Shown: in pieces, positions 3,690-28,415 of the stretch
How the letters are laid out: each line of letters starts with the position of its first letter
How positions within the stretch are numbered: position 1 is the first letter of the stretch
Virus record (IMG/VR): IMGVR_UViG_3300037459_000170
Coordinates: 1 to 30,942 of that record
Source of the DNA: a virus
Direction: 5' to 3' (one strand)
DNA length: 30,942 nucleotides
Position numbers and translations under genes: made by a program
The notes under the pieces: model-generated
The model's input: the letters and a program-made list of their open reading frames with translations, nothing else
Databases searched by the model: none
Told to the model about the DNA's origin: nothing

Positions 3690-4433
3690 ATGTACTTTCC
3701 AGACGACGACCCAGACCCGCCAGACGATCCACCGCCAGACGATCCGCCCGCGGACGATCCACCGGACGACGATCCGCCAGCCGACGACCCACCGGCGGAT
3801 GACCCTCCAGCGGACGATCCGCCAGACGACGATCCGCCCGCGGACGACCCCCCGGCCCAGGAGACCTCTGCGCAAAAGCGCAAGCGCCTACTAAAGGACC
3901 CGGAGGTGCAGCGCATGATCAAGCAGCAGGCCGACAAGGCCCGCCGCGATGCGCTCACCAAGGCGGCGAAGGAGGCTGAGACCAAGGAAGCCCGCACCAA
4001 GATGGACGCCGAGGAGCGCCTGAAGGCCGAAAAGGCCGACGCGGAGACGGCGAAGGAGGCAGCGGAGGCCGCCCAGGCGCAGGCGGAGATGGCCCTAGAC
4101 TTCTATAAGTCCGTGGTCAGCAGCGGCCACAGGTTCGCAGACGCCGAGGACGCGCAGTACGTGATGGAGCTGGCGGCCAAAAAGGTGGAGGCGGACGGTG
4201 TGGACTGGGGCGCCGCCATGGACGAGATCGCGGAAAACAAGCCGCACCTGTTCATCCAGCCCGGCGAGGACGACCCGTCACCCAAGAAAACCAAGGCCAA
4301 CACGCAGCCGCCGAACAAGAAAAAGGGCGCGCCGCCCAAGGATCCGCCCGGCGATAAGCCGCCCAAGGACGCGCTGGCCATGAGTAACGAGGATTTCCGG
4401 GCGCACATGACAAAGCTCGGCCTGCCGCACTAA
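3690..4433 (+). CDS. probable capsid scaffolding protein with DDPP-repeat N-terminus, 247 aa
   Basis: Three parts are visible. Residues 5-55 are an acidic Asp/Pro repeat (about nine copies of a five-residue unit such as ADDPP). Residues ~58-135 form a long charged heptad-rich helix typical of a scaffold coiled coil. The C-terminus has Lys/Pro-rich linkers and a short terminal helix (MSNEDFRAHMTKLGLP), like the capsid-binding tail of scaffolds. It lies directly before the major capsid gene, the usual scaffold position. A GAGGAG Shine-Dalgarno sits 6 nt before the ATG. The scaffold role is inferred from composition and order; the repeat is unusual for this class. Confidence 0.75.
   Translation: MYFPDDDPDPPDDPPPDDPPADDPPDDDPPADDPPADDPPADDPPDDDPPADDPPAQETSAQKRKRLLKDPEVQRMIKQQADKARRDALTKAAKEAETKEARTKMDAEERLKAEKADAETAKEAAEAAQAQAEMALDFYKSVVSSGHRFADAEDAQYVMELAAKKVEADGVDWGAAMDEIAENKPHLFIQPGEDDPSPKKTKANTQPPNKKKGAPPKDPPGDKPPKDALAMSNEDFRAHMTKLGLPH
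3702..3854 (+). repeat. in-frame ~15-bp tandem repeat coding for (A/D)DDPP
   Basis: About nine to ten imperfect 12-15-bp units code for an Asp/Pro-rich tail. Codons vary synonymously between units (GAC/GAT, CCA/CCG/CCC/CCT), so the protein pattern is kept while the DNA repeat has drifted. Confidence 0.85.
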
Positions 4434-4643: not shown

Positions 4644-6044
4644 ATGGCCCAGGTAGCACTCGGATCAATCATCCCGCAGTTGGCGTTTCTTGACGCCCTC
4701 GTGCAGGACAACACACTGGCGCGGATCTTTCACGATGCGCTGTACCCTGAGCTGCTGTACCGCATGGAAGCCGTGCCCGATAAGTGGGCGGCCAACCTTG
4801 GGCAGCGCGAGATCCAGACGCGGTCTGGTCTCTTCGGCGTAGACACCGACCCGGTGGACGCTGGCGCGGATCCGTTGCCGGAAAACGAGGCGTTTGAGCA
4901 GTGGGAAGTGACGGCGGCGCAGCACGGCAAGTCCACGGACGTGAACATGTCCGTGAGCCGCACGACGCTGAACAGCCTTTTCTTGCGCAAGGCGAAAAAC
5001 CTTGGGCTCAACGCCGGGCAGACCCTCAACCGGCTCGCGCGGAACCGACTGTTTTGTGCGTACGTCGGAGGGCACACCATTGCGGAGACTGCGGCCAGCC
5101 CTGACGACTTTTTCGAGGTGGCCTCTATTACGGGCTTCCAGCAACAGCTGCTGGACGGACAGCTGAACCCGGTAAGCGCCGCCAACGGCAAGCCGTTCCT
5201 GATCAACGGCGTGCTGTCGGCGGAGACCGTGATCGCTGTGGCGCCGCTGGACGCTGCGTTTCCCAACGGTCGCGGCCTGGTCACGACCAGCGGGGACGTG
5301 ACCGTGGTGGCTGGCGATACGATCCAAGCGGCGGATGCCGCGACGGTGATCCGCGCCGGCGGTGGCACCAGTGTGGACGCCCTCGCGACCACCGACCTGT
5401 TGACCCTGGCGGACGTTCGCCGGGCGGTCGCTACCCTGCGCCGCAACCGAGTGCCGCCCCACTCGGACGGCTACTTTCACGTACACCTGGACCCGCTCAC
5501 GGAATCGCAGCTATTCGCTGACCCCGAATTCCGCCAGCTCAACGAGTCCAACTACGGGGACGCGCCTTACCAGATGTTTGCCGTCGGCAAGCTCCTGGGC
5601 TGCGTGTTCTACACCAACAGCGAGAGCCCCTCCGACCTGAACACCGGCCCGCTGCAGGTCAGCCGACCCGTTGACGAGGCCTCGGCGCGCCTTGGTCGAG
5701 AGATCGGGGCCGAGGTGATCAACGCCGCCGACGTGCGGATCCTGCGAACGATCGTCACCGGCGGCGGCGCCCTCTACGAGAAGTACGTGGACGAGTCCGA
5801 GTACCTGAGCGAGGCCGGATACCAGGGCAAGATCGGCGGTTTCGGCGTCGTCAACAACGGGATCGCAATCCCGATCGAGCGGATCCGGTACATCGTTCGT
5901 GCCCCGCAGGACCGATACCAGCAGCAGGTCAGCCAGACCTGGAGCTGGACCGGAGACTTTGGTGTGCCCTCGGATTTCCTGGGCGGCCTCACCGGCGCAC
6001 GTTTCAAGCGCGGCGTGGTGATCGAAAGCGGGCAGAACGTCTAG
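4644..6044 (+). CDS. major capsid protein, 466 aa
   Basis: This is called the major capsid protein from its place directly after the scaffold, its length, and an overall pattern like HK97-fold capsids, possibly the N4 gp56-like group. Features include an N-terminal helical arm, then strands, with a YFHVHLDPLTESQLFADPEF segment around residues 275-300 resembling the strand-loop-helix common in that group. Residues ~195-260 are Gly/Ala/Val-rich and may be an inserted surface domain (VVAGDTIQAADAATVIR). The C-terminus has the expected beta-rich region. The leader is ~95 nt with a CAC-rich element and GGAG. It should form most of the head shell. The subgroup is uncertain. Confidence 0.85.
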   Translation: MAQVALGSIIPQLAFLDALVQDNTLARIFHDALYPELLYRMEAVPDKWAANLGQREIQTRSGLFGVDTDPVDAGADPLPENEAFEQWEVTAAQHGKSTDVNMSVSRTTLNSLFLRKAKNLGLNAGQTLNRLARNRLFCAYVGGHTIAETAASPDDFFEVASITGFQQQLLDGQLNPVSAANGKPFLINGVLSAETVIAVAPLDAAFPNGRGLVTTSGDVTVVAGDTIQAADAATVIRAGGGTSVDALATTDLLTLADVRRAVATLRRNRVPPHSDGYFHVHLDPLTESQLFADPEFRQLNESNYGDAPYQMFAVGKLLGCVFYTNSESPSDLNTGPLQVSRPVDEASARLGREIGAEVINAADVRILRTIVTGGGALYEKYVDESEYLSEAGYQGKIGGFGVVNNGIAIPIERIRYIVRAPQDRYQQQVSQTWSWTGDFGVPSDFLGGLTGARFKRGVVIESGQNV

Positions 6045-6134: not shown

Positions 6135-6536
6135 ATGCCCACGCTTCAAGACAACCTAGATCGGGTCAACCCGAACAACCACCCGGCCGACCTGCAGGCC
6201 CTGCGCGACCCGAATGGCGACGGCTTCGGCGCGCTCCTGGCGGGGCTGATCCCCCGCGAGATCGTCCGCACCAGCCTGACGTCCCAGGCTGCACACGTTG
6301 AGCCGGAGGCCGGCGTGATTCTGGCCTTGTCGGACGGCACCGACGAGTACCTGATCGCCCCGGTCACCGCCGGCACGCCGCTGGCAAAGGGCGCACTCGC
6401 AAACGGTGTTGCCACCGTGGGCTACGACGTCAACGGCGTAGCCACGATCACCTTTGAGGGGGTAAAAACCGCCTACACGGTGGTTAAGATGGTGCTGCCC
6501 GCAGGCATGGGCGACGCGCTGGCTGCCAACCTCTAA
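6135..6536 (+). CDS. probable head decoration protein, 133 aa
   Basis: This gene directly follows the capsid gene and shares its CAC-rich leader type, which fits an abundant capsid-associated protein. Residues ~45-125 form a compact beta-rich domain (GVILALSDG, EYLIAPVTAGTPL, VATVGYDVNGVATITFEGV). The same order of motifs occurs in the 146-aa protein at 27975 near the spike, so this looks like a reusable virion-surface domain. From memory, such domains appear in decoration or head-fibre proteins of other phages; that is inference. The N-terminal ~40 residues (NPNNHPADLQALRDPNGDG) may be a capsid-binding arm. Confidence 0.65.
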   Translation: MPTLQDNLDRVNPNNHPADLQALRDPNGDGFGALLAGLIPREIVRTSLTSQAAHVEPEAGVILALSDGTDEYLIAPVTAGTPLAKGALANGVATVGYDVNGVATITFEGVKTAYTVVKMVLPAGMGDALAANL

Positions 6537-9826: not shown

Positions 9827-10108
9827 GTGCCCGGGGACGTAATCAGGCCGATCAACTTTGAGCTGCTGACCGAGCTGAATCAGTCCGACGACCAGACCAA
9901 GCATTTCATGGGCACGGCCAGGTGCACGGAATGCGGCGACGAGCATAAGTGCGTGGTGCCGACCGACCTGTGGGCGATGCACCCACCGGCCACGGAGTGT
10001 GTCGCGTGCGGGAAGCTGGCCTGCCTGTTCGTGGACCCCGACGAGGAGCCGCGCGACGGCGGCGACCCTTACACGTACCAAGTGATCTGGCCCGATAAAC
10101 GAACATGA
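9827..10108 (+). CDS. small zinc-ribbon-like protein, 93 aa
   Basis: The start is GTG 9827, predicted leaderless. CTEC (about residues 33-36) and CVAC (about 61-64) are two CxxC pairs separated by ~25 residues, the spacing of a zinc ribbon (seen). A further Cys lies at each side. The C-terminal part is acidic and Pro/Gly-rich. Its stop overlaps the next ATG as ATGA. The ribbon suggests nucleic-acid or protein binding; no specific family is recognised. Confidence 0.6.
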   Translation: MPGDVIRPINFELLTELNQSDDQTKHFMGTARCTECGDEHKCVVPTDLWAMHPPATECVACGKLACLFVDPDEEPRDGGDPYTYQVIWPDKRT

Positions 10109-13609: not shown

Positions 13610-16141
13610 ATGGCCGGATTCAAAAGAGTATTTCGCGCGTTTCCTGGTTTCGACGTTCTGGCGAATATCGAAAGCACCAACGTTCTGGACATTGCCCCGC
13701 CTGGGCAAGTGCTCGGCGCCGGCGTTGGCGTCGTCCTGCTCGTTGGAGAATTCGATAACGGGGCCGTCAACACCCCCGCGGAGATCTTCGGCACCAACGA
13801 CCTGCTGACCAAGTTCGGGGGCCTCGGTTTCAGCATCGCCGGCAACACCCACGCGGGATCCGTCGCGGTCAAGTCGGGCGGCGATGAGCTGTGGAACGGA
13901 AACGGGTTTATTTGGCTGCGGAATAAGTCGTTTTCAGGCCTGATCATTTCGCGGGTGGACAACTCGGCCGGCTCGGTGGCGTTCAGCCGCCTAGCCTGCC
14001 TGACCGGTGGCGACGGGCCCTTTGATATTTCCGACGCGGACACGATCGAATTCACGCGCAACGGTTCGGTGGTTGTCACCGCGACATTCACCGCGACCAA
14101 GGGGATCCTGACTGCCGTGGGCGGCACGTTCCCGACCCTGTTCACGGGCGGGGAGACGCTGGAGATCAAGGACGGTACCGACGCCACGCGCGTGGTGATA
14201 TTCACGGCGGCCGACCAGCTGCTGGCGGACGTGATCCTGCGGATCAATGGGACCCTGGCGAAAGATCTGGCCTTTGACAACACCAGCGAGCTGGAGCTGC
14301 GCAGCTCGATCGCTGGCGGTCTCGGACGGATCGAGGTGGTCGGCGGAACCTCGCTGGCGGTTCTCGGCCTGCCCGCTGCCGTCGTTCAGCAGGTGGACAC
14401 GTACTCCGTGGACGTGGCGGAGGCGGGCACGTACACGCTGCGCACCGCCCTGAACGTGGCCGGAGTGCTTACCAACTTTGACGCCAGTTTCACGGCAGTG
14501 GCGGAATCGGACACGCAGATCCGCGACGCACTGCTGCTCGCGTACCAGGGGCTCAGCGTCCCGGGCGTCACGTTCACCGCCAGCGGCGCGATCGAGATCC
14601 TGGCGACGGGTGATGCCAATATCCTGTTTACCTCCACCGTTGAGGTGGAACCCACCGCCTCGGACATCGGCCTGACGCTCACCACGCCGGGCGTGGTCCT
14701 GGCCGGGTTCGGCCTCGGCAACGTGCTGAACATTGACGACGTGAGTGTGGACGACGCCGTGGTGGTCATAGACGCCGTGGCGGGGCTCCTTGCCGAAAAG
14801 GACACGGACGGAAACCTGCGCGTTTGCAACTCCGGCACCCCGGCAACCGGCACCCTGCAGGCGACCGGCGGCACCGTGCCCACCGTGTTTGGGTTCGATC
14901 TCGTAACGGTTGCGGACGCTGCACTGGCGGCGGACGTGACGATCCCGGCAGGCACCCGCGTGCAGGACTCCACGAGCACCGCCACGATCTGGGTAACCAT
15001 GGAGGACATCGACACGGGCACCGGCGGCGGAGCGTTTACGGCCAGCGTCCGACCACTCAACGACGACGACACGGCGATCGCCTCGATCGCCGCCAACGTG
15101 ACCCTGATCCTGGACGACCTGCCGGACGGGTTTAGCGTTACGAACGCAGCAGCGATCACTCGACTCAGCGCCAGCCAGCTGGACGCACGCTACCGCACCG
15201 CAATGGAGGCGACGCTGGCGAGTGCCGGCGTATCTCGCAAAGCAAACGTGATCTGCGCCGCGCGCTCGTCCGCCTCGATCATGGCGTCGCTGAAAACAAA
15301 CGCGCTGGACGCCACCGCCGCAGGGCTGGCGGCCCGCAAAGCGATCATGCGTCCGCCGCTTGCGACGACTCGCACCGAGGCCAAGGGGGCCACGGGCGTG
15401 GGCGTTGCCGTTCCGAGCATCGGCCGCGACGAGCGAGTGATCTACCTGTTCCCCGGCTGCACCACGCAGATCCCGGAGATCCAGGAGATCGGAGCCGTCA
15501 GCGGCGGGACCGGGTTCACGGACGACGGAATTATCGAAGTGGGCGCGGACTCGTTCTATGCCGGCGTTCGATCCGTCCTGCCGCCGGAGGAGAACGCCGG
15601 GCAGGACCTGGAGGAGACCAACGTGTCGCAGCTCAATGTGACGAGCCTGCAGGATGCTTTCAACCCCGACATAGCTGGAGGCGTCGGCCTGGGCATCGAG
15701 GATTATCAATCGTTCAAGGCAAACGGGATCATCGCGCTGAACAGCAACCCAGAAAGCGGGTTCTTTTTCCAGTCCGACGTGACCAGCGTGGACCCACAGG
15801 TGAGCGGGGTAAAGGCGCCCGCGAACCGTCGCTTTTTCGCTGACCTGGTGATCGACACGCTCGGCCAGATCGGGATCAAGTACGTAAAGAAGCTAAACAC
15901 GCCGAAGCGAAACAACGCCCTGATCCAGGCGATCCGCGGATTCCTGCGCTTGCTGCAGTCGCCCAACCAGCCCGACACGTCGCGGCTGGACAGCTTCCAA
16001 GTGTTTGACGATACGACCGACGACCAGCGGGCTCTCGGCCTGGTGTTCATTATCGTCAAAGTGAAAATGTTCCCCGCCATGCTTTCGATCACGTTCAGCG
16101 CCGAGGTGGGCACCACTGTGGTGATCGAAGAGGCGGCGTAG
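13610..16141 (+). CDS. contractile tail sheath protein, 843 aa
   Basis: The N-terminal region has a sheath-type segment (VLGAGVGVVLLVGEFDNG near residues 35-52). The C-terminal ~320 residues contain the conserved sheath core ending in IIVKVKMFPAMLSITFSAEV. Together with the tube gene downstream this shows a contractile tail. At 843 residues it is much longer than the usual ~400-650. The excess lies in residues ~150-480, which look like successive beta-rich domains on the outer surface. One (residues ~273-348) matches the protein at 8535. A promoter with a long CAC leader predicts high late expression. Confidence 0.9.
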   Translation: MAGFKRVFRAFPGFDVLANIESTNVLDIAPPGQVLGAGVGVVLLVGEFDNGAVNTPAEIFGTNDLLTKFGGLGFSIAGNTHAGSVAVKSGGDELWNGNGFIWLRNKSFSGLIISRVDNSAGSVAFSRLACLTGGDGPFDISDADTIEFTRNGSVVVTATFTATKGILTAVGGTFPTLFTGGETLEIKDGTDATRVVIFTAADQLLADVILRINGTLAKDLAFDNTSELELRSSIAGGLGRIEVVGGTSLAVLGLPAAVVQQVDTYSVDVAEAGTYTLRTALNVAGVLTNFDASFTAVAESDTQIRDALLLAYQGLSVPGVTFTASGAIEILATGDANILFTSTVEVEPTASDIGLTLTTPGVVLAGFGLGNVLNIDDVSVDDAVVVIDAVAGLLAEKDTDGNLRVCNSGTPATGTLQATGGTVPTVFGFDLVTVADAALAADVTIPAGTRVQDSTSTATIWVTMEDIDTGTGGGAFTASVRPLNDDDTAIASIAANVTLILDDLPDGFSVTNAAAITRLSASQLDARYRTAMEATLASAGVSRKANVICAARSSASIMASLKTNALDATAAGLAARKAIMRPPLATTRTEAKGATGVGVAVPSIGRDERVIYLFPGCTTQIPEIQEIGAVSGGTGFTDDGIIEVGADSFYAGVRSVLPPEENAGQDLEETNVSQLNVTSLQDAFNPDIAGGVGLGIEDYQSFKANGIIALNSNPESGFFFQSDVTSVDPQVSGVKAPANRRFFADLVIDTLGQIGIKYVKKLNTPKRNNALIQAIRGFLRLLQSPNQPDTSRLDSFQVFDDTTDDQRALGLVFIIVKVKMFPAMLSITFSAEVGTTVVIEEAA

Positions 16142-16201: not shown

Positions 16202-16636
16202 ATGCCACTGCAACGAATCAAAGGCCAGGAAACGATCATCACGATCTTGCAGGACGGCGACCTGCGATCGCGGATCGATTCGATCAGCGACGCGGAGGTC
16301 AGTTTCGACCTGGAGATCCTGGAGGAGGGCTACCTTGGCGAAACGGCCAACAGGTTTGACGCCATTTTCAACGGGATGGGTATCAAGCTGACGGGCCACT
16401 TGACCAATAAACAGTTTATTGATTTCACCAACGCGATCGTGGGCCGAGCCCAACGCCGCGCCGGTGGTGCCGTGCAGATTGACATCGCCACCACGCTGAT
16501 CTTTCCAGGCGGCGACCTCGTGAACATCGGGATCCCCGACGTGCAATTCGGCGCTGTACCGTTCAGCGACGGAGGCCGCGAGGAGTACGTGGAGTGGTCG
16601 CTGGAGGGCAAGGCGTCCGAGTTCGAGATCTTCTAG
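16202..16636 (+). CDS. tail tube protein, 144 aa
   Basis: This 144-residue protein lies directly after the sheath and has the size and mixed strand pattern of a contractile-tail tube monomer: an N-terminal strand-turn (IKGQETIITILQDGDLRS), a GMGIKLTGHLTNKQFIDFTN middle section and a C-terminal strand pair ending WSLEGKASEFEIF. It should form the inner tube through which DNA passes. The start has an AGGA Shine-Dalgarno and a CAC-type leader. Confidence 0.85.
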   Translation: MPLQRIKGQETIITILQDGDLRSRIDSISDAEVSFDLEILEEGYLGETANRFDAIFNGMGIKLTGHLTNKQFIDFTNAIVGRAQRRAGGAVQIDIATTLIFPGGDLVNIGIPDVQFGAVPFSDGGREEYVEWSLEGKASEFEIF

Positions 16637-16655
16637 CGGACTGGATCCCCGCTAG
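16633..16655 (+). other. 7-bp stem-loop at the tube stop codon
   Basis: CTAGCGG (16633-16639, containing the TAG stop) pairs with CCGCTAG (16649-16655). No T-run follows. It may protect the tube mRNA 3' end, seventeen bases before the first terminator. Confidence 0.5.
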
Positions 16656-16671
16656 GGGGACAGAGAAGTAG

Positions 16672-16707
16672 GCCCCCGCCGTCTGAGGATTCGGTGGGGG
16701 CTTTTTT
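16672..16707 (+). terminator. strong intrinsic terminator after the tube gene (T1)
   Basis: A 10-bp arm (16672-16681) pairs with 16692-16701, with one G-T pair, around a 10-nt loop, followed by six T. It ends the late neck-sheath-tube transcript. Confidence 0.9.
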
Positions 16708-16709
16708 CG

Positions 16710-16718
16710 TGGTAGCGT
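16710..16718 (+). promoter_or_regulatory. extended -10 (TGG-TAGCGT) of the ~118-nt RNA
   Basis: TGG-TAGCGT begins 3 nt after the T-run of T1. The predicted RNA start is near 16725. Confidence 0.55.
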
Positions 16719-16724
16719 TTGCGG

Positions 16725-16842
16725 GCAAGCGGGCCCGTTGACCGACCTACCAAAGAGCGCCAGCCGCTGAAAACGAACACCCCCGGCAGGAGGTGCACCG
16801 ATTGCCGGGCGCCCGCGTGGCTGCAGCTGCGCGGGATTTTTT
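16725..16842 (+). ncRNA. candidate small RNA or leader-attenuator, ~118 nt
   Basis: This unit runs from a promoter (16710-16718) to an intrinsic terminator (16812-16842) with no convincing standalone gene. It has three hairpins: CGGGC/GCCCG near 16723-16738, CCCGGCA/TGCCGGG (16782-16788 with 16803-16809), and the terminator. The second presents GGAGGTGCACC in a 14-nt loop, an exposed near-perfect Shine-Dalgarno complement. It could be a regulatory small RNA, a GGA-loop binding site for an RNA-binding protein, or an attenuator for the next gene. The reading is structural inference only. Confidence 0.45.
16812..16842 (+). terminator. intrinsic terminator (T2)
   Basis: CCCGCG (16812-16817) pairs with CGCGGG (16830-16835) around a 12-nt loop, followed by A and six T. 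Confidence 0.85.
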
Positions 16843-16844
16843 CG

Positions 16845-16853
16845 TGATAGCGT
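16845..16853 (+). promoter_or_regulatory. extended -10 (TGA-TAGCGT) after T2
   Basis: TGA-TAGCGT begins 3 nt after the T-run of T2, the same junction as after T1. It predicts an mRNA start near 16860, ~26 nt before GTG 16886. Confidence 0.55.
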
Positions 16854-16885
16854 CGGCTGGTCCCGTTCTGGATCGCAAGGTTTAG

Positions 16886-17257
16886 GTGTGGCGGGACACC
16901 GAGGCCCGCCCGCTGGCTTGTCGGCCCTGCGGGTTGGGCCTCACTAATCCAGTCATTTCGTGCGCGAATTATTCCGAGTTTATAACCATGGACGGGCTGG
17001 ACGACGAGATCGGCGGCAAGGGCTGGCACAAGGTGCGAGCGTTCGGCCACGTCTGTTTCGCCAAGCGCCTGGAAAATGGCCTGCTGCTCGCCATGCGGAT
17101 CGGCAACGTGCCGTTAGGCGTGCCATTCCGCAGCACGGGCGGGTGGGCTGTTTTGGACGTGATGACCTACGCGGCGGCGGATGCGTCGGCTACGGCCGCC
17201 AGCTCGGACGCATCCACGGCTGCCACCAGCTCCAGCGCGGCGGCGGCGTCGGCCTGA
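16886..17257 (+). CDS. hypothetical protein with CxxC and Ala/Ser tail, 123 aa
   Basis: GTG 16886 follows the T2 promoter by ~33 nt; an AAGG lies upstream. ATG 16988 is an alternative shorter start. The N-terminus has CRPC and a further Cys (possible metal site). The core (WHKVRAFGHVCFAKRLENG, then LLLAMRIGNVPLGVPFRSTG) is probably a small beta-rich domain. The last ~32 residues are Ala/Ser/Thr low complexity. These lie on the 91 bp that also code for the 3' end of the convergent minus-strand gene. Function is unknown. Confidence 0.5.
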   Translation: MWRDTEARPLACRPCGLGLTNPVISCANYSEFITMDGLDDEIGGKGWHKVRAFGHVCFAKRLENGLLLAMRIGNVPLGVPFRSTGGWAVLDVMTYAAADASATAASSDASTAATSSSAAAASA

Positions 17258-17520
17258 TTCATGGTCAGGCGGGACTGCAGGCGCCAGCGCTCGGCCACTC
17301 GGTGCCAGCGCTCGATGCTCCAGCGCACCGGCTGCCAGCCAACGACTTTGACGTGGCCCGTGGTGCGCCAGTCCTGAAACGCGAACACGATCAGCGCCCA
17401 CCCGCAGCGGTTTGAGATCACGCGCTTGAACAGCTGGCGGCGGCGCAGCTGGTCGGACCCGTTGCGGTACTCGCAGCCGACCGCCTCAATGTCCTCGTGG
17501 ACGTTGCCGGGGTCCCTCAA
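17167..17520 (-). CDS. conserved-type hypothetical protein, 117 aa
   Basis: TTG 17520 overlaps the upstream gene's stop as TTGA. The core (QLFKRVISNRCGWALIVFAF, then HVKVVGWQPVRWSIERWHRV, then ERWRLQSRLTMNQADAAA) is a Trp/Arg-rich domain. Its end resembles a 'GRWRLQSKFN' phage motif I recall from proteins of unknown function. The C-terminus is Ala-rich and overlaps, antisense, the plus-strand gene tail by 91 bp. It is the last gene of the minus-strand cluster. Confidence 0.6.
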   Translation of the reverse strand: MRDPGNVHEDIEAVGCEYRNGSDQLRRRQLFKRVISNRCGWALIVFAFQDWRTTGHVKVVGWQPVRWSIERWHRVAERWRLQSRLTMNQADAAAALELVAAVDASELAAVADASAAA

Positions 17521-17786
17521 ACCACGGTCCCAGTGTCGGTGCTGATCTGAATGTCGGCGCACATGGGCTTGAGTGTAAACGTCACCTTTGCGCGCACGCG
17601 TCCGGTGGTCGCGTCCTCCAGCACTCGGACGTGCAGGTGGGGCCGGGGCAGCTGTGGCATGTACTCCGCGATCCAGGCGTGAACCTCCGAGTCCACGCCG
17701 TCGCGCCAGCTGTTGGGCAGGCGGGCGCGCAGGTCGGTGATGCGCTTGCTCAGCACACGCACCGTGTCGGCGTTGATCTTCGCCAT
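17517..17786 (-). CDS. hypothetical protein, 89 aa
   Basis: ATG 17786 lies 21 nt after the upstream stop with no clear Shine-Dalgarno. The N-terminal helix (ADTVRVLSKRITDLRARLP) is followed by an acidic, Trp-containing middle and a beta-rich end (RVRAKVTFTLKPMCADIQIS). No family is recognised. Its stop overlaps the next TTG as TTGA, so the pair is probably coupled. Confidence 0.55.
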   Translation of the reverse strand: MAKINADTVRVLSKRITDLRARLPNSWRDGVDSEVHAWIAEYMPQLPRPHLHVRVLEDATTGRVRAKVTFTLKPMCADIQISTDTGTVV

Positions 17787-17807
17787 AACTACGGCTTAAC
17801 TATGCGC

Positions 17808-17981
17808 CTACTTTTTGCGGCCCGCTGGCCCTGCGCTCGCTCGCTCGTACGGGTCGGGGACCGGGGCGCCCGCCGGCGTCGGCGTGATCATCACCTGCTC
17901 GCGAGTGGGTGCGGGCTGAGCTGGCGCCGGCCTGCCCGTGCCGCCGCCGCTTGGAAGTCCTGCCTGGTTGCCTTGTGCCAT
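17808..17981 (-). CDS. tiny Pro/Ala/Gly-rich protein, 57 aa
   Basis: This gene is short but well supported: ATG 17981 lies 7 nt after TGC-TACACT, the window's best -10 form, and the frame closes with TAG at 17808. The product is disordered (SGGGTGRPAPAQPAPTREQ, ending AGPAGRKK). There is no domain. The composition suits a linker or interaction peptide; no function is claimed. Confidence 0.55.
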   Translation of the reverse strand: MAQGNQAGLPSGGGTGRPAPAQPAPTREQVMITPTPAGAPVPDPYERASAGPAGRKK

Positions 17982-17988
17982 GCCCTGC

Positions 17989-17997
17989 AGTGTAGCA
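17989..17997 (-). promoter_or_regulatory. extended -10 (TGC-TACACT), leaderless start
   Basis: On the minus strand TGC-TACACT ends 7 nt before ATG 17981. Confidence 0.65.
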
Positions 17998-18009
17998 GGG
18001 CGCGCGCGC

Positions 18010-18501
18010 TTACTTGCGACGGTTGCGGCGCCCCTTGGGCTTGTCGGGCTCGGTGGTGCTCACCACGGTCTCACCCACCTCGGCCTCCGGCTCGGCCTCA
18101 GTCTCCGGCTCGGTTACCACTGCGGGCGCAGCCCCGGCAGCCTTGCCTGCGCGGCCCTTGGTCTCACCCTTGGGCAGTGAGGTGGCAAAGCCGAGCATGG
18201 ACGCGTGCTGCGACCCTAGGCCAGCGTTGCGCAGCGCGAGCACGACCTGGTGCCGGCCTGCCTTAGAGCCACAGAGGTGCGACACCACGACCACCGACTG
18301 CTCCGGCTTGGACATATCGTGCGCACGACGGGCGGGGCGTTTCCCCTTGGCCTCAACGGCCGTGGCGTTGTGCACGTCGCGGGGGTGACAGTGCGACCCG
18401 ATCAGCTTCGCCAGTTCCTTGGAGGGCTTGGCCCCGACGGAAACGTAGGTCAGCAGCGGGGGCTTGGGTACGGTGTTGGTGTCAAACGACTGCGCGGGCA
18501 T
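18010..18501 (-). CDS. hypothetical protein with charged C-terminal tail, 163 aa
   Basis: ATG 18501 is 6 nt after TAGCAT (predicted leaderless). Residues ~15-110 are mixed, with His/Cys residues (LIGSHCHPRDVHNA), a VVVVSHLCG strand and an LRNAGLGSQHASMLGF turn. Residues ~115-163 are low complexity: Ala/Glu/Pro-rich, then a basic tail (DKPKGRRNRRK). I recognise no family; the basic tail would suit nucleic-acid binding. Confidence 0.55.
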   Translation of the reverse strand: MPAQSFDTNTVPKPPLLTYVSVGAKPSKELAKLIGSHCHPRDVHNATAVEAKGKRPARRAHDMSKPEQSVVVVSHLCGSKAGRHQVVLALRNAGLGSQHASMLGFATSLPKGETKGRAGKAAGAAPAVVTEPETEAEPEAEVGETVVSTTEPDKPKGRRNRRK

Positions 18502-18507
18502 GGGGCA

Positions 18508-18513
18508 ATGCTA
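18508..18513 (-). promoter_or_regulatory. -10 (TAGCAT) fused with upstream TAG stop
   Basis: On the minus strand the TAG stop of the upstream gene (18511-18513) is the first half of TAGCAT, which ends 6 nt before ATG 18501. Confidence 0.6.
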
Positions 18514-18891
18514 CACCCCGCGGGCCCACTCGTGCACGGCCCGCTCCACCTTGGCCCTGCACTCGTCGTCCAGCACGTTGCTGACCTGGTCCAGCACGTC
18601 GTCCAGCGTGGGGATCCTGCGCTCCAACATGAGCACCTCGGCCTTGGTGGTGTTCGCGGCCTGGGCCAGCACGTTGCGCATGACCGCCTGCCGCATGCCA
18701 ACGGGGAGCTGCTCCACGAGGGACGCCCCCGCTCGCAGCCAAATCTCCCAGGCGCTTTTGCTCGTCAGGGCCGCGCCCTCCGGGTCAAACCCTCGCGCCG
18801 CGTCGTCGGTGCAGACCAGAATAGACTCGCCCCGGCCGGCGGCAAGTGTCTGCCCCGCGGAACCCTCAACGATCCAGCTCGCCTCGCTCAT
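18511..18891 (-). CDS. hypothetical helical protein, 126 aa
   Basis: I use ATG 18891 because it overlaps the upstream stop as ATGA and has AGGAG 8 nt upstream; a longer reading of the frame is an extension into the neighbour. The N-terminal third is mixed. The rest is helical (SLVEQLPVGMRQAVMRNVL, then TLDDVLDQVSNVLDDEC). No family is recognised. The TAG stop doubles as half of the next promoter hexamer. Confidence 0.55.
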   Translation of the reverse strand: MSEASWIVEGSAGQTLAAGRGESILVCTDDAARGFDPEGAALTSKSAWEIWLRAGASLVEQLPVGMRQAVMRNVLAQAANTTKAEVLMLERRIPTLDDVLDQVSNVLDDECRAKVERAVHEWARGV

Positions 18892-19550
18892 TTGCTTGCT
18901 CCTCGTGCCCACCATCGCGACCCCGGCGGGCCTAGCGTCTGCGCCCCGTTCCCGCGGTACCGGCTTTTCGTGCCGTCGTGCATGTGCAGGGTCACCACCA
19001 TCTTGCGGCCGTGAGCGGCCAGCAGGGTGAGCAGTTCGCCGGCGGCGGGGGTCACGGGCCCACTGTAACGCAGTTTCCCACCGACCCTGACGACGACGCG
19101 GCGCACGCTGGCCGGGCTCACCTCCATGGGGTCCCTGCCGGTGACGATCGTGGACTTGCCAGCGGACGAGCCGGGGGCCACGGGATTATGCAACTCCGGC
19201 TTGCGGAGGCGGTCAGGCGGCACGCTGTAATCGCGGTGGCCGTCCACGGTCCTGACGAGGACGCGGCGGCCGTTCGGGCGCCAGCCAACGACCTGCACGG
19301 GGATCCTTTGCTTGCCCTTTTTGCCCACCCAGGTGGCGAATGCGCCGGCGCGGATCCACGCGAGCGGCTCGGCGGGGCCAGGGTCGATCGTGACAATCGA
19401 CTGATCGGTTCTCTCCACGGCGGGGATCAGCACTTCCACGGTGCGATCTTTGCCGATCGCCTTGTCAATGCCGACCGCCATCCCGTCGAACGTCTGCCGG
19501 TGGACGATCGCCGGCTCGTCAATATCGTTGTTCGGGTCGGCCTTGTTCAT
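18888..19550 (-). CDS. hypothetical protein, two beta-rich segments, 220 aa
   Basis: Two regions look folded: residues ~60-115 (PLAWIRAGAFATWVGKK, then IPVQVVGWRPNGRRVLVRTV) and ~145-205 (SVRRVVVRVGGKLRYSGPV, then KMVVTLHMHDGTKSRYRG). They are joined by a polar linker and could be SH3-like or barrel domains (inference). ATG 19550 follows a CATCGT-tgggcc spacer of 6 nt, a weak version of the leaderless -10. Function is unknown. Confidence 0.55.
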   Translation of the reverse strand: MNKADPNNDIDEPAIVHRQTFDGMAVGIDKAIGKDRTVEVLIPAVERTDQSIVTIDPGPAEPLAWIRAGAFATWVGKKGKQRIPVQVVGWRPNGRRVLVRTVDGHRDYSVPPDRLRKPELHNPVAPGSSAGKSTIVTGRDPMEVSPASVRRVVVRVGGKLRYSGPVTPAAGELLTLLAAHGRKMVVTLHMHDGTKSRYRGNGAQTLGPPGSRWWARGASK

Positions 19551-19582
19551 GGCCCAACGATGCCAGGAAAAAACCGCAGCCG

Positions 19583-20098
19583 CTAGACTCCGCCCATGCG
19601 TTCCCAGGCAGTGCGCCCACGCTCGCGCGGCTCCTCGTAGTCGTCGTCCAGGGCGGCGATGCGCTCAAGGGCCACCGTTTCGATCTGGCGCACGCGCTCG
19701 CGGCTCATGCCGATCGCCTCGCTGATCCGCTCCAGCTCGGTGCCGCCCTGATCGGCAATGTCCAGCGCGCAGCTGTGCGCCATTTCCCAGGGCTCGCCCA
19801 GGTAGTTCCACCGGATCGTCCCGGTGTCCTGGTTGACGTCCATAAACAGGTTGTATTTGCAGCCCACGAAAGGGCAGGGCCTCGGCAGGTCCACGCAGTC
19901 GGCCCTCGTGCGCGGTCGCCCAAACCGTTCCGGGTACAGCAGGCGGCCGATCTCCTCGGTCTCCTTGGTGTGTCGTTTGATCGACCAGGCGGCCAACCGC
20001 TCACCGCCTGAGCGCGCACGCTGCAGCGGCCAGGGTAGCGGTGCCACCCACTCCGGCACCACAGGCTCCGGGGCGGGGACGATCCGCAAGTGCACCAC
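19583..20098 (-). CDS. sigma-region-4-like transcription factor, 171 aa
   Basis: Residues ~118-150 form a clear sigma region 4.2 helix-turn-helix (ERISEAIGMSRERVRQIETV). It is preceded by a Cys-containing domain (Cys68, Cys75, Cys80, Cys110; PCPFVGCKYNLFMDVN) that may bind zinc. No region 2 is visible, so it should not act as a full sigma factor. It may bind the RNA polymerase beta-flap or the -35 region and redirect the host enzyme, as region-4-like phage factors do (inference). From memory this combination occurs in Myxococcota. GTG 20098 is the start used; GTG 20095 is equally possible. Confidence 0.75.
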   Translation of the reverse strand: MVHLRIVPAPEPVVPEWVAPLPWPLQRARSGGERLAAWSIKRHTKETEEIGRLLYPERFGRPRTRADCVDLPRPCPFVGCKYNLFMDVNQDTGTIRWNYLGEPWEMAHSCALDIADQGGTELERISEAIGMSRERVRQIETVALERIAALDDDYEEPRERGRTAWERMGGV

Positions 20099-20136
20099 AC
20101 GCGGCGGCGCCAGGGCGTGGTGGTCGGGCTCCGGCG

Positions 20137-20517
20137 CTAGTCTTTTTTTGCGAGCCGGTACAGCTTGCCCGATCGCTGCAGGACGCCCTTGCCGAACTGG
20201 TAGGACAGGACGCTGCCGATCGGCTTGTGGTCAAGGCCGGGCAGGGCCTCGACCAGCGTTTTGGCGGTCCAGCCCTTCCCTGGGTTCTGCGCCATGAGCG
20301 TTAGCACGGCGGTGGTGGTCGTGCCCGGTTGTTGTCCGCCCTTGTCGGCGTCCGGGGCTCGCGTTCGGCGTTGCTTGGCGAGGGCGGGCGGCTCGGCCTT
20401 GCGGGCGGCGCCACCCCGCAGTGCTAGCAGTTCGGACTCGATGGCCTTGAGGTCCTGCTGCAGTTGCAGGCGGCGCTCAATCAGCGCCACTACTTGATCG
20501 TACTCGTCGGGGGTCAT
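20137..20517 (-). CDS. winged-helix DNA-binding-type protein, 126 aa
   Basis: Residues 5-35 are a coiled-coil helix (VVALIERRLQLQQDLKAIES), then a basic linker. Residues ~68-124 read as a winged helix: TAVLTLMAQNPGKGWTAKTL, a recognition helix (KPIGSVLSYQFGKG), and a wing (LQRSGKLYRL). The layout suits a dimeric regulator. The start overlaps the upstream gene as ATGA. It lies beside the sigma-like gene, suggesting a phage regulatory module. The target is unknown. Confidence 0.65.
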   Translation of the reverse strand: MTPDEYDQVVALIERRLQLQQDLKAIESELLALRGGAARKAEPPALAKQRRTRAPDADKGGQQPGTTTTAVLTLMAQNPGKGWTAKTLVEALPGLDHKPIGSVLSYQFGKGVLQRSGKLYRLAKKD

Positions 20518-20819
20518 GTGTCGGCGTCCTCTTCGGCCACTCTATCCCACCACCTGTACCGGTGGCCGGTGAACAGGCGGATCTTGCAGTTGATGGCGCA
20601 GCGCCTGGGTGCGCCGCAGCCCAGTATCGTGGTGACCTTGCCGCGTGGATTCACCATGGCGATCTCGCCGTAGCCCCACAGGCGCCCCCGGTGTATCACG
20701 TACAGCCGGTCCCCAACCTCCACGAGTAGCCGGCGAGTGTGTCCCACCACCGTGCGCCACGACTTGCCAAGCTCCGGCAGCTTCGCCGCACGGTTCACCG
20801 TCACCACCACGTCGGTCAT
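20514..20819 (-). CDS. conserved-type hypothetical protein, 101 aa
   Basis: ATG 20819 lies 5 nt after TAGGCT; a TTG two codons upstream is an alternative. The sequence has a beta-rich core: VGDRLYVIHRGRLWGYGEI, then VTTILGCGAPRRCAINCK and RYRWWDRVAEEDAD. From memory the 'G-rLWGY' and 'RYRWW' pieces recur in small phage proteins of unknown function. There are three Cys near residue 70-80. Its stop overlaps the winged-helix gene as ATGA. Confidence 0.6.
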   Translation of the reverse strand: MTDVVVTVNRAAKLPELGKSWRTVVGHTRRLLVEVGDRLYVIHRGRLWGYGEIAMVNPRGKVTTILGCGAPRRCAINCKIRLFTGHRYRWWDRVAEEDADT

Positions 20820-20824
20820 GTGCA

Positions 20825-20830
20825 AGCCTA
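20825..20830 (-). promoter_or_regulatory. -10 (TAGGCT) fused with upstream TAG stop
   Basis: On the minus strand the TAG stop at 20828-20830 is the first half of TAGGCT, which ends 5 nt before ATG 20819. Confidence 0.55.
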
Positions 20831-21052
20831 GTGCAGCATGTCGGTGGGGTCGATCTCAAGGCAGCGCCCCGCGAGGCTGACCTGGAGACCTTCGCCGCGG
20901 AGCCGGGCTGCGAGGAGGCTCGCCGTCTGCTCGTCGCGTTCCACGATGCACGCACGCTCGCCGCCTCGGACGGTGGCGAGTACGGCGGCCAACGTGTTGG
21001 CCCCGGTGCCCTTGCGGGCTGGTGTTTGGATCCGGTGCATGTGGACGTCCAC
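20828..21052 (-). CDS. hypothetical protein, 74 aa, first gene of the minus cluster
   Basis: I use GTG 21052, 6 nt after TACGAT with a TTGCGC -35 17 bp further up, because upstream in-frame starts lie across the divergent promoter. The protein has a basic N-terminus, a helix (ANTLAAVLATVRGGERACIV) and a mixed C-terminus (LLAARLRGEGLQVSLAG). No family is recognised. Its stop forms half of the next promoter hexamer. Confidence 0.5.
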   Translation of the reverse strand: MDVHMHRIQTPARKGTGANTLAAVLATVRGGERACIVERDEQTASLLAARLRGEGLQVSLAGRCLEIDPTDMLH

Positions 21053-21058
21053 GCCCTG

Positions 21059-21087
21059 ATCGTATGGCCTCCGGCGGCGAAGCGCAA
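21059..21087 (-). promoter_or_regulatory. promoter of the minus cluster (TTGCGC-17-TACGAT)
   Basis: On the minus strand TTGCGC (21082-21087) and TACGAT (21059-21064) are 17 bp apart. TACGAT ends 6 nt before GTG 21052, so the start is leaderless. Confidence 0.55.
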
Positions 21088-21152
21088 CCGGGCACCTGCG
21101 CGAGTTTACGACCTGGGAACAAGGCAAGCCGATCGGCTGCAGTTGTTTGCGG

Positions 21153-21182
21153 TTGCGATGCTCGGCGGACGGGGTGTACGTT
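21153..21182 (+). promoter_or_regulatory. promoter of the tail-chaperone gene (TTGCGA-18-TACGTT)
   Basis: TTGCGA (21153-21158) and TACGTT (21177-21182) are 18 bp apart, the -10 ending 7 nt before ATG 21190. It is divergent from the minus-cluster promoter and shares its TTGCG -35. Confidence 0.55.
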
Positions 21183-21189
21183 GGCCGCC

Positions 21190-21786
21190 ATGGCCGACCA
21201 GGACCAAGAACAAGAGAAATCGCCAACCACACGCGTGGAGCGACGACCACCCGACGACGGCGAGCCCGACGAAAACGCCGGGTTTGCCAACCTGCCGAGA
21301 GCCGAGGGCACCCGCGTGCGATCGGGCGACAAAATGCCGGGAGGGCAGCAGGCGACCACCGGGATCCTGACGCCTGCGACGCTGCGCCAGCTCGCTGGCG
21401 CCGACGGTGAGCGGGAATTTGTGCAGTTCACGCTCAGCGAAAAGCTAATGGGCCTGGCCTGGAAGGCCGGGAAAACCGGCGGATTTCCCCCGGACAAGGG
21501 GGCGATATTCGCCATGGTGGAGCTGACGCCAGAGGAGGAGGACAAGGCGGTGAGCGCCGCCGGGGCGGGCATCAAGCTGCAGGCCGCGTTTTCCGAAATG
21601 GTCAAGGCGTCGATCTGGATGGTCGGCGGCGAGCTGATCAACTACGACACCAAGGGCAAGTGGTTGCGGGCGATCGGGCCCAGGGCGCGCAAGCAGGTGG
21701 AGCGTGCCTACAACGACCTGAACGGAATCGAGGAAGCCGAGGGAGAGGCAATCCTCGCCACGGCGCAGTCGTCCGTCCGGTCCTGA
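21190..21786 (+). CDS. tail assembly chaperone, short form, 198 aa
   Basis: The gene lies right before the tape measure, as G/GT-type tail assembly chaperones do. The N-terminus (~60 residues) is acidic and polar, followed by a helical domain (LRQLAGADGEREFVQFTL, then KLMGLAWKAGKTGGFPPD). The C-terminus ends ...AQSSVRS at UCC-UGA. Downstream, a 71-codon frame in the +1 phase has no start codon of its own. I therefore treat this as the short product of a frameshifting pair. It should bind the tape measure during tail assembly. ATG 21190 is a leaderless start. Confidence 0.75.
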   Translation: MADQDQEQEKSPTTRVERRPPDDGEPDENAGFANLPRAEGTRVRSGDKMPGGQQATTGILTPATLRQLAGADGEREFVQFTLSEKLMGLAWKAGKTGGFPPDKGAIFAMVELTPEEEDKAVSAAGAGIKLQAAFSEMVKASIWMVGGELINYDTKGKWLRAIGPRARKQVERAYNDLNGIEEAEGEAILATAQSSVRS

Positions 21787-22000
21787 AAAAGGGGACTGGC
21801 GGACGCCGCTGGCGAGGTCATTCGCGTGTCGCACCGCCGACTGGAGGCGCCACGCAGACGTGCAGCTAGATAACTGCTGGTATTTAGCGCGCTACGCTAA
21901 CCAGGACTACACGGCCATGACCCGTCTGCCGTGCTCCAAGGTGAATCGCGGGTGCGAAACGATCAGCAGGTTTCTCGAAAAGGAATTCGCGGACGACTAG
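21785..22000 (+). CDS. +1-frame extension of the tail assembly chaperone (fusion of 269 aa)
   Basis: If ribosomes move +1 at UCC-UGA (21781-21786), translation continues at GAA 21785 for 71 codons to TAG 21998. The extension is protein-like, with Trp and Cys residues (EKGDWRTPLARSF, then DNCWYLARYANQDYTAM and CETISRFLEKEF). The frame has no ATG, GTG or TTG between its opening at 21722 and the shift site, so it is hard to explain as a separate full-length gene. A GCGG-ACG-CCGC stem starts 13 nt after the stop. A -2 shift further upstream would give nearly the same product. Confidence 0.65.
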   Translation, partial: EKGDWRTPLARSFACRTADWRRHADVQLDNCWYLARYANQDYTAMTRLPCSKVNRGCETISRFLEKEFADD

Positions 22001-22018: not shown

Positions 22019-24229
22019 GTGGCCGGCGAGCGCATTGATTACAACGTCAACGCCTGGCTACGGGCGCGCGGCAATTTCAGCAAGCAGATGGCGCGCAACG
22101 CCGCGAGCGTCAGGCCGCTGCACTCGCGCATGGTCGCCATGGGTCGCACGACGGAGACCTGGGGCCGCATGGTCATGGGCACGACGGCAGCGACGGCAGC
22201 GAGCTGGACGAAAACTGCGGGCGTTGTAGGCGGGCTGGTCGCCGCCGGCGGGCTCGCCATGCTCGTCAAGCAGGGGATGGACTTCAACAATCAGATGGAG
22301 GCCGGGCAGCTTTCCATCGCGTCCATGTATCAGCTGTATGGTCAGAACCAGCGCAACTTCCAGGCCAACCTCGCGCAGTCCAAGGGGGCCATGCGCGAGC
22401 TGTTCGATATGGCGAAAAAGTCGCCGGTTGAGTTCACGGAGGCCGTGGACATCTACCAGGGCGCCGCGTCGGGGCTGATCGTCGCCAACCAGTCCATGCG
22501 CGAGCAGATGGAGTTTATGAAGGGCGCCCAGATGCTCAAGGGCGTGATCCCTGACCTGGACGCGAAGACGATCGGCGCGCAGCTCGGCCGCACCATGATG
22601 GGCGGAGCCGGTGCGGAGTTCGAGGTGTGGAAGCGGCTGGCGCCGGCGATCCTCGAAAACGGCAAGGCCATGGGCACGTTCAACGATAGCGTGATGCTCG
22701 GTCAGAAGTTCACGCAGGAGTTCAACAAGATCGCGCAGGCGCAGCCAGAGGTGGCGATGGACCTGCTCAAAAAGTCGGTCAAGCCGCTGGAGGACCTGGC
22801 CGACGAGTACGAGCGATCGTGGGGCGGGATCATATCCACGACCAAATCGAACATGCGGATCATTTCGGGGTCGTTCGCCAAGCCTCTGAACGAGGCCACC
22901 AAGAACATGCTGTTCCAGCTGAATAAAACCGGCTTTATGTCGAATGAGAACATAGGAAAGCTGGAGCACATCGGCATGACCATGGGCATCATGCTGGCCG
23001 GGGCGGGTGAAAAGCTGTTCCTGCAGATCGTGGCCGGCGCCGAATTCCTGCGCGACAACTGGCAGGACGTTTTCCAGACGATCCGCAACACCGGCCAGGT
23101 CGTGGCGATGGCGATCAAGGGCGCCTTTTTTGTTGGCGTCGCCCGGATGCTTATCGGTGCGGGGATGGTCGGCAGCGGCAAGCTCATGCGAGCGGGGGGC
23201 GCTGCGCGTGGCGGGGCCGGAATGATGGCCGAAATGTTTGGCCGCATGCAGAAGCGCCAGCACTTCCGCATGGGCCGAGGGCTGCGAGGCAAGGGCGGCG
23301 GCGGCATAGCCGGGATGCTCGGCGCCGGTGCTGGTCGCCTACTGGGCACGAGCAGCAAGGGCGCCGGCCCATTCGGGAAAATGTTCAAGTTCATGGACAC
23401 GTTTACCCTCAAGGTCGGCAGCTTTGGCATGGTCCTGGCCGGCGGCATTCCGATCATCATTGGGCTGGCCTTGGCATTCGGCACCGTGATCACCGTGGTG
23501 GCGGGGCTGTCCGCGTACGTGATCCAAAACTGGCAAGCGATCAGCGGGGCGATCGTGCAGGGGCTCACCGACGGGCGGATCACGCTCGTGCCGCTGCTGA
23601 CGGCGCTATACACTTTTTGGGCCCGGCTCGTGATCGTGGGCGAGGCGTTTCTGGGCGGGTCCGATCACGTGGGCCAGTTCAACGGCATGCTCAACCTCAT
23701 GATCGGCATGATCGAGATCGCCAGCGGTGCGATCGCCGTGTTCATGAAAGCGCTAGCGATCTCGATCGGGATCTGGGGCGCGCTCAAGCTGACGCTCCTA
23801 GGCGTGATGAAAGTAATTCTCGAAATGCTCCGCCTGAACAACAAGGTGGGCCTGGCCTCGGACGAGTCCCTGGCAAACGCGGAGCGGAACTACGCGAAAT
23901 TCAAATCCGGCACGGTGGATACGTTCACCACCGTGGACCAGCTGCTGAGCAAGGCCGACCAGATCAAGAATTTCCAGTTTGACAAGGCCGACTTGGCGAA
24001 GGTGGAAAAGCAGGCCAAGGCGTGGGAGGACAAACTGAAAAAGGCGCTGAGCGGCGACCCGAAAAAGAAGCTCCCCCGCGCGCCCAAGGTGGCGATCAAC
24101 AAGGTGGAGATCGTCATGGACCTACGGGACTCGGACCCAGACCGGCTCATGGCCGCGTTTGTGGAACCGCTGGAGCGCATGGCCGACAAGCGCGTGCAGG
24201 CGTACGACCAGCTGGAGCAGGGGACCTAG
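22019..24229 (+). CDS. tape measure protein, 736 aa
   Basis: This is the longest tail gene after the sheath and lies between the chaperone and the baseplate genes. Long helical regions alternate with hydrophobic segments at residues ~60-83, ~466-505 and ~555-600, which are candidates for membrane insertion during DNA entry. A Gly/Arg-rich loop occurs around 395-440. The C-terminus is Lys-rich, then acidic. By the usual 0.15 nm per residue rule, 736 residues suggest a tail of roughly 110 nm. No lytic or peptidase motif is seen. Start GTG 22019. Confidence 0.85.
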   Translation: MAGERIDYNVNAWLRARGNFSKQMARNAASVRPLHSRMVAMGRTTETWGRMVMGTTAATAASWTKTAGVVGGLVAAGGLAMLVKQGMDFNNQMEAGQLSIASMYQLYGQNQRNFQANLAQSKGAMRELFDMAKKSPVEFTEAVDIYQGAASGLIVANQSMREQMEFMKGAQMLKGVIPDLDAKTIGAQLGRTMMGGAGAEFEVWKRLAPAILENGKAMGTFNDSVMLGQKFTQEFNKIAQAQPEVAMDLLKKSVKPLEDLADEYERSWGGIISTTKSNMRIISGSFAKPLNEATKNMLFQLNKTGFMSNENIGKLEHIGMTMGIMLAGAGEKLFLQIVAGAEFLRDNWQDVFQTIRNTGQVVAMAIKGAFFVGVARMLIGAGMVGSGKLMRAGGAARGGAGMMAEMFGRMQKRQHFRMGRGLRGKGGGGIAGMLGAGAGRLLGTSSKGAGPFGKMFKFMDTFTLKVGSFGMVLAGGIPIIIGLALAFGTVITVVAGLSAYVIQNWQAISGAIVQGLTDGRITLVPLLTALYTFWARLVIVGEAFLGGSDHVGQFNGMLNLMIGMIEIASGAIAVFMKALAISIGIWGALKLTLLGVMKVILEMLRLNNKVGLASDESLANAERNYAKFKSGTVDTFTTVDQLLSKADQIKNFQFDKADLAKVEKQAKAWEDKLKKALSGDPKKKLPRAPKVAINKVEIVMDLRDSDPDRLMAAFVEPLERMADKRVQAYDQLEQGT

Positions 24230-27974: not shown

Positions 27975-28415
27975 ATGGCAAGCAATCAGAGCAGGCTCAA
28001 CTCCGGGATCCCTGCGATCCCCACGCCGCCGGAGCTGACCGACGGCGCCATCCGCTACGGCAACGCCTATCTGGGCGTGAGCGGGAAGGAGGGCGCGGCG
28101 ACCCAATGGGGCAACTACCTGCGCCGGATCCCCGTTGCGCTCACGGGGCTGGCGGTTGCGGCCAGCTCGCACACAACCTCCAGCCCCGGGGCTGTGCTTT
28201 CCGTGCAGGCAACCACCGCGACGTTCGCCGGCGGCAAGGTCATGGTGGCGTCAGGCGCAGCGGCTGGCGGCGAGGTAAAGGTGGTCTACAACGCTGACGG
28301 CACGGCTACGCTGACGTTCAACGGCATAGACGCCGTGACCGTTTGCGCAATCCACCAGCTGCAGGTCCCCGCCGAGGTGATCGCATTCCTGGACGCGGAA
28401 ACGGATCCAGCGTGA
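27975..28415 (+). CDS. virion protein with decoration-like domain, 146 aa
   Basis: ATG 27975 is 3 nt after the spike stop. The N-terminus is polar (SNQSRLNSGIPAIPTPPE). Residues ~55-135 align in order with the decoration-like protein at 6135: PGAVLSV versus AGVILAL, VKVVYNADGTATLTFNGID versus VATVGYDVNGVATITFEGV, and a final hydrophobic strand. It sits between spike and fibre, so it is probably an exposed baseplate or fibre-attachment protein. The stop overlaps the next GTG as GTGA. Confidence 0.65.
   Translation: MASNQSRLNSGIPAIPTPPELTDGAIRYGNAYLGVSGKEGAATQWGNYLRRIPVALTGLAVAASSHTTSSPGAVLSVQATTATFAGGKVMVASGAAAGGEVKVVYNADGTATLTFNGIDAVTVCAIHQLQVPAEVIAFLDAETDPA

Follow-up and report, generated by a model that had tools for sequence, protein, structure and literature searches.

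Frameshifted tail assembly chaperones are already known to be common, and tailed phages use -1, -2 (phage Mu) or +1 shifts for this gene, the versions coming from unrelated phages (PMC5009743). In phage lambda (gpG/gpGT) and its -1 relatives, a two-part gene stands between the genes for the tail tube and the tape measure, the extension has no start of its own, and the slip occurs near the end of the first part. The locus described here shares all of these features. However, lambda and its relatives enter the -1 frame on a heptamer of the form X_XXY_YYZ, whereas the present phage and its clade appear to enter the +1 frame (equivalent to -2) without such a heptamer.

Phage Mu is contractile-tailed like the present phage and also enters the +1 frame of its chaperone gene, with -2 as the established route (PMC5009743). 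The slip site is nevertheless a different one, and the shift in Mu is experimental whereas ours is predicted. Forward shifts in phage tail genes are represented by tsh of the Listeria phages PSA, A118 and A500, which shift +1 at CCC_UGA (PMC5009743); this is, however, a major tail protein gene and not a chaperone gene, its shift codon is CCC (Pro) and not UCC, and the stop-codon site of our locus is unconserved. In the haloarchaeal myovirus HSTV-2, the chaperone gene itself very likely shifts +1 (PMC5009743). Antizyme genes carry UCC_UGA, the identical hexanucleotide to that at the end of our chaperone frame, but they are eukaryotic, regulated by polyamines and equipped with their own stimulators, whereas in the present set a single contig has the hexanucleotide. 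Arterivirus nsp2TF likewise reaches the +1 frame by a -2 shift, although it does so on eukaryotic ribosomes and needs viral nsp1-beta and a host protein. On its G_GUU_UUU site, re-pairing is complete for the A-site tRNA and poor for the P-site tRNA, as it would be at GGA_GAG, the candidate site described below.

The DNA that we analysed, referred to here as the window, is a 30,942-base IMG/VR virus contig of about 66% G+C from an uncultured contractile-tailed phage. Its main genes for the present purpose are the following.

4644-6044: major capsid protein, matching PHROG 1357
13610-16141: tail sheath, part of the contractile-tail module
16202-16636, plus strand: tail tube protein, with gene order conserved in relatives
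21190-21786, plus strand: tail assembly chaperone, 0-frame product of 198 aa ending in UCC-UGA, with homologs 5' of the tape measure gene in relatives
21785-22000, plus strand: extension in the +1 frame (T-like domain), with 71 aa beyond the stop, or 84 aa from 21746 on a -2 slip
22019-24229, plus strand: tape measure protein of 736 aa, the next gene, assigned by homology to relatives
From 24233: baseplate hub proteins

The sheath and tube genes upstream place the chaperone in the contractile-tail module. As in G/GT-type loci, the chaperone lies between the tube and tape measure genes, and the order sheath, tube, chaperone, extension, tape measure and hub is kept in relatives. The tape measure protein is 37-39% identical to the long protein found 3' of the extension in two of these, L134 and L131. 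Neither the chaperone nor the extension matched Pfam or PHROG at E 0.1, the tape measure and tube proteins matched no Pfam or PHROG family, and tblastn of the tape measure and sheath against named phages gave no match.

Several other features of the region were observed. A block of minus-strand genes (16652-21250) splits the tail operon between tube and chaperone. The minus-strand ORF at 20828-21250 extends about 60 bases into the beginning of the chaperone gene (21190-21250), antisense to it. In L134 the gap from tube to chaperone is similarly long (about 7 kb) and includes a homolog of the 18888-19550 gene, also on the minus strand; L131 has only about 0.4 kb between the two genes. The gene at 3690-4433 encodes a putative scaffolding protein with a long low-complexity repeat of the DDPPADDPP type near its N-terminus. 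A small protein encoded after the capsid gene (6135-6536) and a protein of the tail fibre region (27975-28415) have matches at the same loci in L131 and L135, and apparently represent a common domain.

The chaperone frame ends at UCC-UGA (21781-21786), as the first-pass annotation had read it. The +1 frame is open from 21722 to 22000, giving an overlap of 62 nt and 71 residues beyond the stop, and it holds no ATG, GTG or TTG before the 0-frame stop. A +1 slip at UCC, counted from ATG 21190, does yield the proposed fusion of 269 aa. Two possible internal starts had gone unmentioned: a GTG at 21860, which GGAGG (21843-21847) precedes by 12 nt, and, further on, an ATG at 21917. Within the window alone, codon usage gives a weak coding signal for the extension and GC by codon position no clear one. 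The extension is the best of six frames, yet its codon-usage score of -0.016 bit/codon falls below the 1st percentile of real gene segments. Evidence was therefore sought in relatives.

Single-sequence scans of viral contigs with the chaperone, tube, tape measure and capsid proteins gave no matches, and tblastn against named phages returned distant capsid relatives only. The successful route began with a capsid alignment (Streptomyces phage Kromp, Komagataeibacter phage phiKX2). This led to L004/G001, which shares 38% identity with the window in the tape measure and 37% in the chaperone, and sheath alignments followed. These yielded the contigs L131, L132/L133, L134 (the same contig as G001) and L135, which we refer to as the clade, and the more distant L136-L154. 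In a midpoint-rooted tree of sheath, tube and hub proteins, the five +1-frame phages group with 100% bootstrap, and L131 is nearest to the window (81%).

In L131, L132/L133, L134 and L135, and thus in all clade members found, a homologous T-domain comes after the chaperone and lies in the same +1 (=-2) frame. The frame relation and the homology of the extension thus rest on at least four independent relatives, which is more than chance. A profile built from the extensions of the relatives, without the window, scores the +1 frame of the window at 50.2 bits. As in G/GT-type genes, the out-of-frame ORF overlaps the first, is conserved, and has no conserved start codon of its own across the clade. 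Judged by this comparison, the extension is a real, conserved coding frame. The relatives likewise support the earlier proposal of a tail assembly chaperone that precedes the tape measure and gains, by frameshifting, a C-terminal extension without a usable start.

These alignments also bear on two readings in which no frameshift takes place. The extension could be a separate small protein translated from GTG 21860 (or ATG 21917), with GGAGG 12 nt upstream. Both the GTG and the GGAGG exist, and 42.4 of the 50.2 profile bits are retained by the part after the GTG; the match nevertheless starts before this first possible start, as does the first predicted helix (residues 218-236, the GTG being at residue 224). 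No start is conserved at that place in the relatives, where the extension keeps the same frame and is never a separate gene with a conserved start, so that we regard this reading as very improbable. It is barely credible that a sequencing or assembly error, or decay of the gene, has broken what is truly one continuous frame. The window is a single metagenome-derived contig, but independent clade contigs show the same frame break with different sequences and different 0-frame stops (TGA in the window; TAA, TGA, TAA and TAG in the relatives). This excludes a base-calling error, which the first-pass annotation had named as a possible refutation.

The AlphaFold model of the fusion has a confidently predicted chaperone domain (residues 101-180 at pLDDT 88-95), and its C-terminal domain is helical, at pLDDT 83-91 per 10-residue block from residue 221. 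The chaperone part of the model resembles YqbN (3KLU, residues 70-181, Z 8.0) and the HK97 tail assembly chaperone (2OB9, residues 61-179, Z 5.1), both with moderate scores. Taken together, the conserved frame, the profile match and the predicted fold make a base-calling error or a separate gene with its own start unlikely. We consider that the chaperone gene is very probably decoded by programmed frameshifting into the +1 frame.

The more distant relatives point to where the slip might occur. In these the extension is in the -1 frame, and twelve of them (L129, L139, L140, L142, L145, L149, L150, L152-L154, L138 and L148) carry a canonical heptamer, GGGAAAA, AAATTTT, TTTTTTC, AAAAAAA or GGGAAAC. 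The same two-part gene with canonical -1 heptamers in distant relatives further argues against a separate protein made from GTG 21860. In phiKX2 (L002:15900-16122), recognised from architecture alone, the chaperone is annotated as hypothetical and ends in A_AAA_AAC-TGA. The ORF after it lies in the -1 frame and is annotated as a gene of its own; the phiKX2 chaperone is a candidate for an unannotated -1 frameshift.

We aligned the chaperone C-termini without gaps from a conserved aromatic residue, taken as column 1. In relatives with an automatically found anchor, the -1 heptamers have their P site at column 13, 14 or 15, and L139, aligned by eye, agrees (GGA AAA at columns 13-14). The slip therefore has a fixed place in the protein, with the heptamers of the distant relatives at columns 13-16. 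At column 15, L134, L132 and L135 (the last aligned by eye) have UUU followed by C (L134:20485, L132:14706 and L135:14860). TTT accounts for 12%, 4% and 20% of the Phe codons in these three contigs, so that the joint chance of this coincidence is near 0.001. UUU_Y is especially prone to +1 shifts in bacteria (PMC5009743), and UUU_C at the conserved column is a candidate +1 slip site in these three phages. An in-frame X_XXY_YYZ heptamer, the mark of a canonical -1 shift, was found in none of the window, L131, L134, L132 and L135.

The first-pass annotation had placed a +1 slip at UCC-UGA 21781-21786, where slow termination would let tRNA-Ser move one base forward and give the 269-aa fusion. The site exists and the shift does lead into the +1 frame, but neither the site nor the direction finds support in the comparison. 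UCC_UGA occurs in the window only; the relatives end in ATC_TAA, ATC_TAA, GTC_TGA and CAC_TAG, last codons that re-pair 1/3 on a +1 slip, while UCC to CCU re-pairs 2/3. The hexanucleotide lies at columns 25-26, at least 10 codons further downstream than the conserved slip column. By inspection, there is no SD-like sequence 3 nt upstream as in RF2. No significant stem follows the stop (downstream folds z 0.04 to 1.23), and the short stem noted earlier, 13 nt downstream of UCC-UGA, is no stabler than shuffles (z 0.04). The locus thus lacks the conserved shift codon with stop, the upstream SD-like sequence and the downstream structure that mark RF2- or antizyme-type +1 sites. Randomised RF2 shift sites, moreover, favour CUU before the stop, with CCC and UUU next (PMC10885494). 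In favour of UCC-UGA, antizyme genes as a rule shift +1 on this hexanucleotide, and Listeria phage tail genes on CCC_UGA (PMC5009743). L134, L132 and L135 seem to shift +1 at UUU_C, so that +1 may hold for the whole clade. We consider a +1 slip at UCC-UGA unlikely, although it is the main rival to the reading that we prefer, a -2 slip at GGA_GAG. A +1 fusion would read through EAILATAQSSVR and then S-EK-GDWR, without AYNDLNGIEEAEGER, and the tryptic peptide expected from it is AYNDLNGIEEAEGEAILATAQSSVR followed by SEK(GDWR).

All +1 and -2 slips inside the overlap were scored for re-pairing. The -2 slip on GGA_GAG_GCA is the sole one in the window that re-pairs 3/3, and the elements of this candidate are as follows.

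21742-21747, plus strand: GGA_GAG, best candidate slip site (-2), with tRNA-Glu re-pairing from GAG to GAG at 21743-21745
21748-21752, plus strand: spacer of 5 nt between slip site and hairpin, of equal length in L131 (9825-9829)
21753-21817, plus strand: hairpin enclosing the 0-frame stop, from the fold and its L131 counterpart

The window and its sister L131 both have GGA_GAG at the same place in the alignment, columns 12-13, next to the column of the -1 slips in the distant relatives. A re-pairing -2 site inside the overlap is thus present in both phages, where GGA makes up 7.7% (window) and 22% (L131) of Gly codons. Perfect -2 re-pairing is possible at about 1% of codons, and the chance of one such site in a 20-codon overlap is about 20%, so that re-pairing alone is weak evidence. 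The P-site Gly tRNA would re-pair just 2/3. GGA_GAG is absent from L134, L132 and L135, which have the +1-prone UUU_C; a single mechanism therefore fails to cover the clade.

The hairpin downstream adds to the case for GGA_GAG. Positions 21753-21764 pair with 21805-21808 and 21810-21817, and 21771-21775 with 21800-21804; the apical region (21777-21784 with 21792-21799, loop 21785-21791) contains the UGA. The structure has a folding energy of -44.5 kcal/mol (z -5.8; 0 of 200 shuffles as stable), with limits that were set after the fold was seen. In an unselected 101-nt sliding scan the junction ranks 7th of 771 window stretches, and since about 1% of stretches are equally structured, the weight rests on the position of the hairpin and on L131. 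There, a corresponding hairpin (9830-9882, z -2.45) also encloses the stop.

In both phages the hairpin starts exactly 5 nt past GAG, and perfect stems of equal length at this spacing follow only 0.2% (window) and 0.36% (L131) of codons. Backward shifts usually have a structure 5-9 nt downstream; the window and L131 both have one at a short fixed spacing, and its stimulation of the slip is putative. The two stems share a CCUCGC/GCGAGG core, which could partly reflect shared coding sequence, and the pair next to it (outer-stem pair 7) reads C-G in the window but A-U in L131. Folded within 121 nt, L131 is ordinary (z 0.13), as is L134 (z 0.74). A hairpin common to the clade was looked for in such 121-nt folds and not found, L132/L133 and L135 forming other structures, and our claim is therefore confined to the window and L131. 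Because the hairpin encloses the stop, bypassing as in T4 gene 60 was considered; it was dropped, the frame being explained without matched take-off and landing codons.

A ribosome positioned on UCC-UGA would already have unwound this large hairpin, and GGA_GAG with the hairpin 5 nt downstream fits better than +1 at UCC-UGA. The shift into the +1 frame might instead occur elsewhere, for example at an inefficient site within 21722-21780, or as a lineage-specific +1 event. The relatives offer several sites each (UUU_C, GGG_G, GGG_A and CCC_G), suggesting that slip sites drift; no further site in the window re-pairs 3/3, and we regard this reading as improbable. As far as sequence comparison can tell, the slip is most likely -2 at GGA_GAG 21742-21747, a reading that we hold at about even confidence.

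In the mechanism we propose, most ribosomes would stop at UGA 21784 and release the 198-aa chaperone, while a minority would shift frame and continue into the helical T-like domain, so that the fusion would be about 270 aa long. At GGA_GAG, the ribosome would slip two bases back, the tRNA on GAG re-pairing with the GAG two bases upstream. The hairpin that starts 5 nt downstream and contains the 0-frame stop would help this slip, and reading would resume at AGG 21746, leaving AYNDLNGIEEAEGER as the junction peptide, followed by QSSPR and PSGPEK. If the two products work as lambda gpG and gpGT do, the part common to both would cover the tape measure, and the T-like domain would bring in tail tube subunits. 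The conserved extension with its frame, the location of the hairpin and the fixed slip column of the relatives are seen in the sequences; production of the fusion, the direction of the shift and the function of the product are what we infer.

With the tree rooted at its midpoint, the simplest account of the sequences is a single change of direction from -1 in this lineage. We tentatively suggest, at somewhat less than even confidence, that the chaperone frameshift moved from -1 to +1-frame access without leaving its place in the protein, and did so in two ways: +1 on UUU_C at the -1 slip column of the relatives in L134, L132 and L135, and -2 on GGA_GAG with a stop-enclosing hairpin in the window and L131. 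If the -2 shift is true, it would be the second phage example after Mu, and its hairpin, which holds the normal stop codon, would be unusual. What would be new here is that the direction of the shift changes within one lineage while the place of the slip stays fixed. A single series of homologous genes would thus make a switch of direction without loss of the fusion product testable on a handful of natural sequences.
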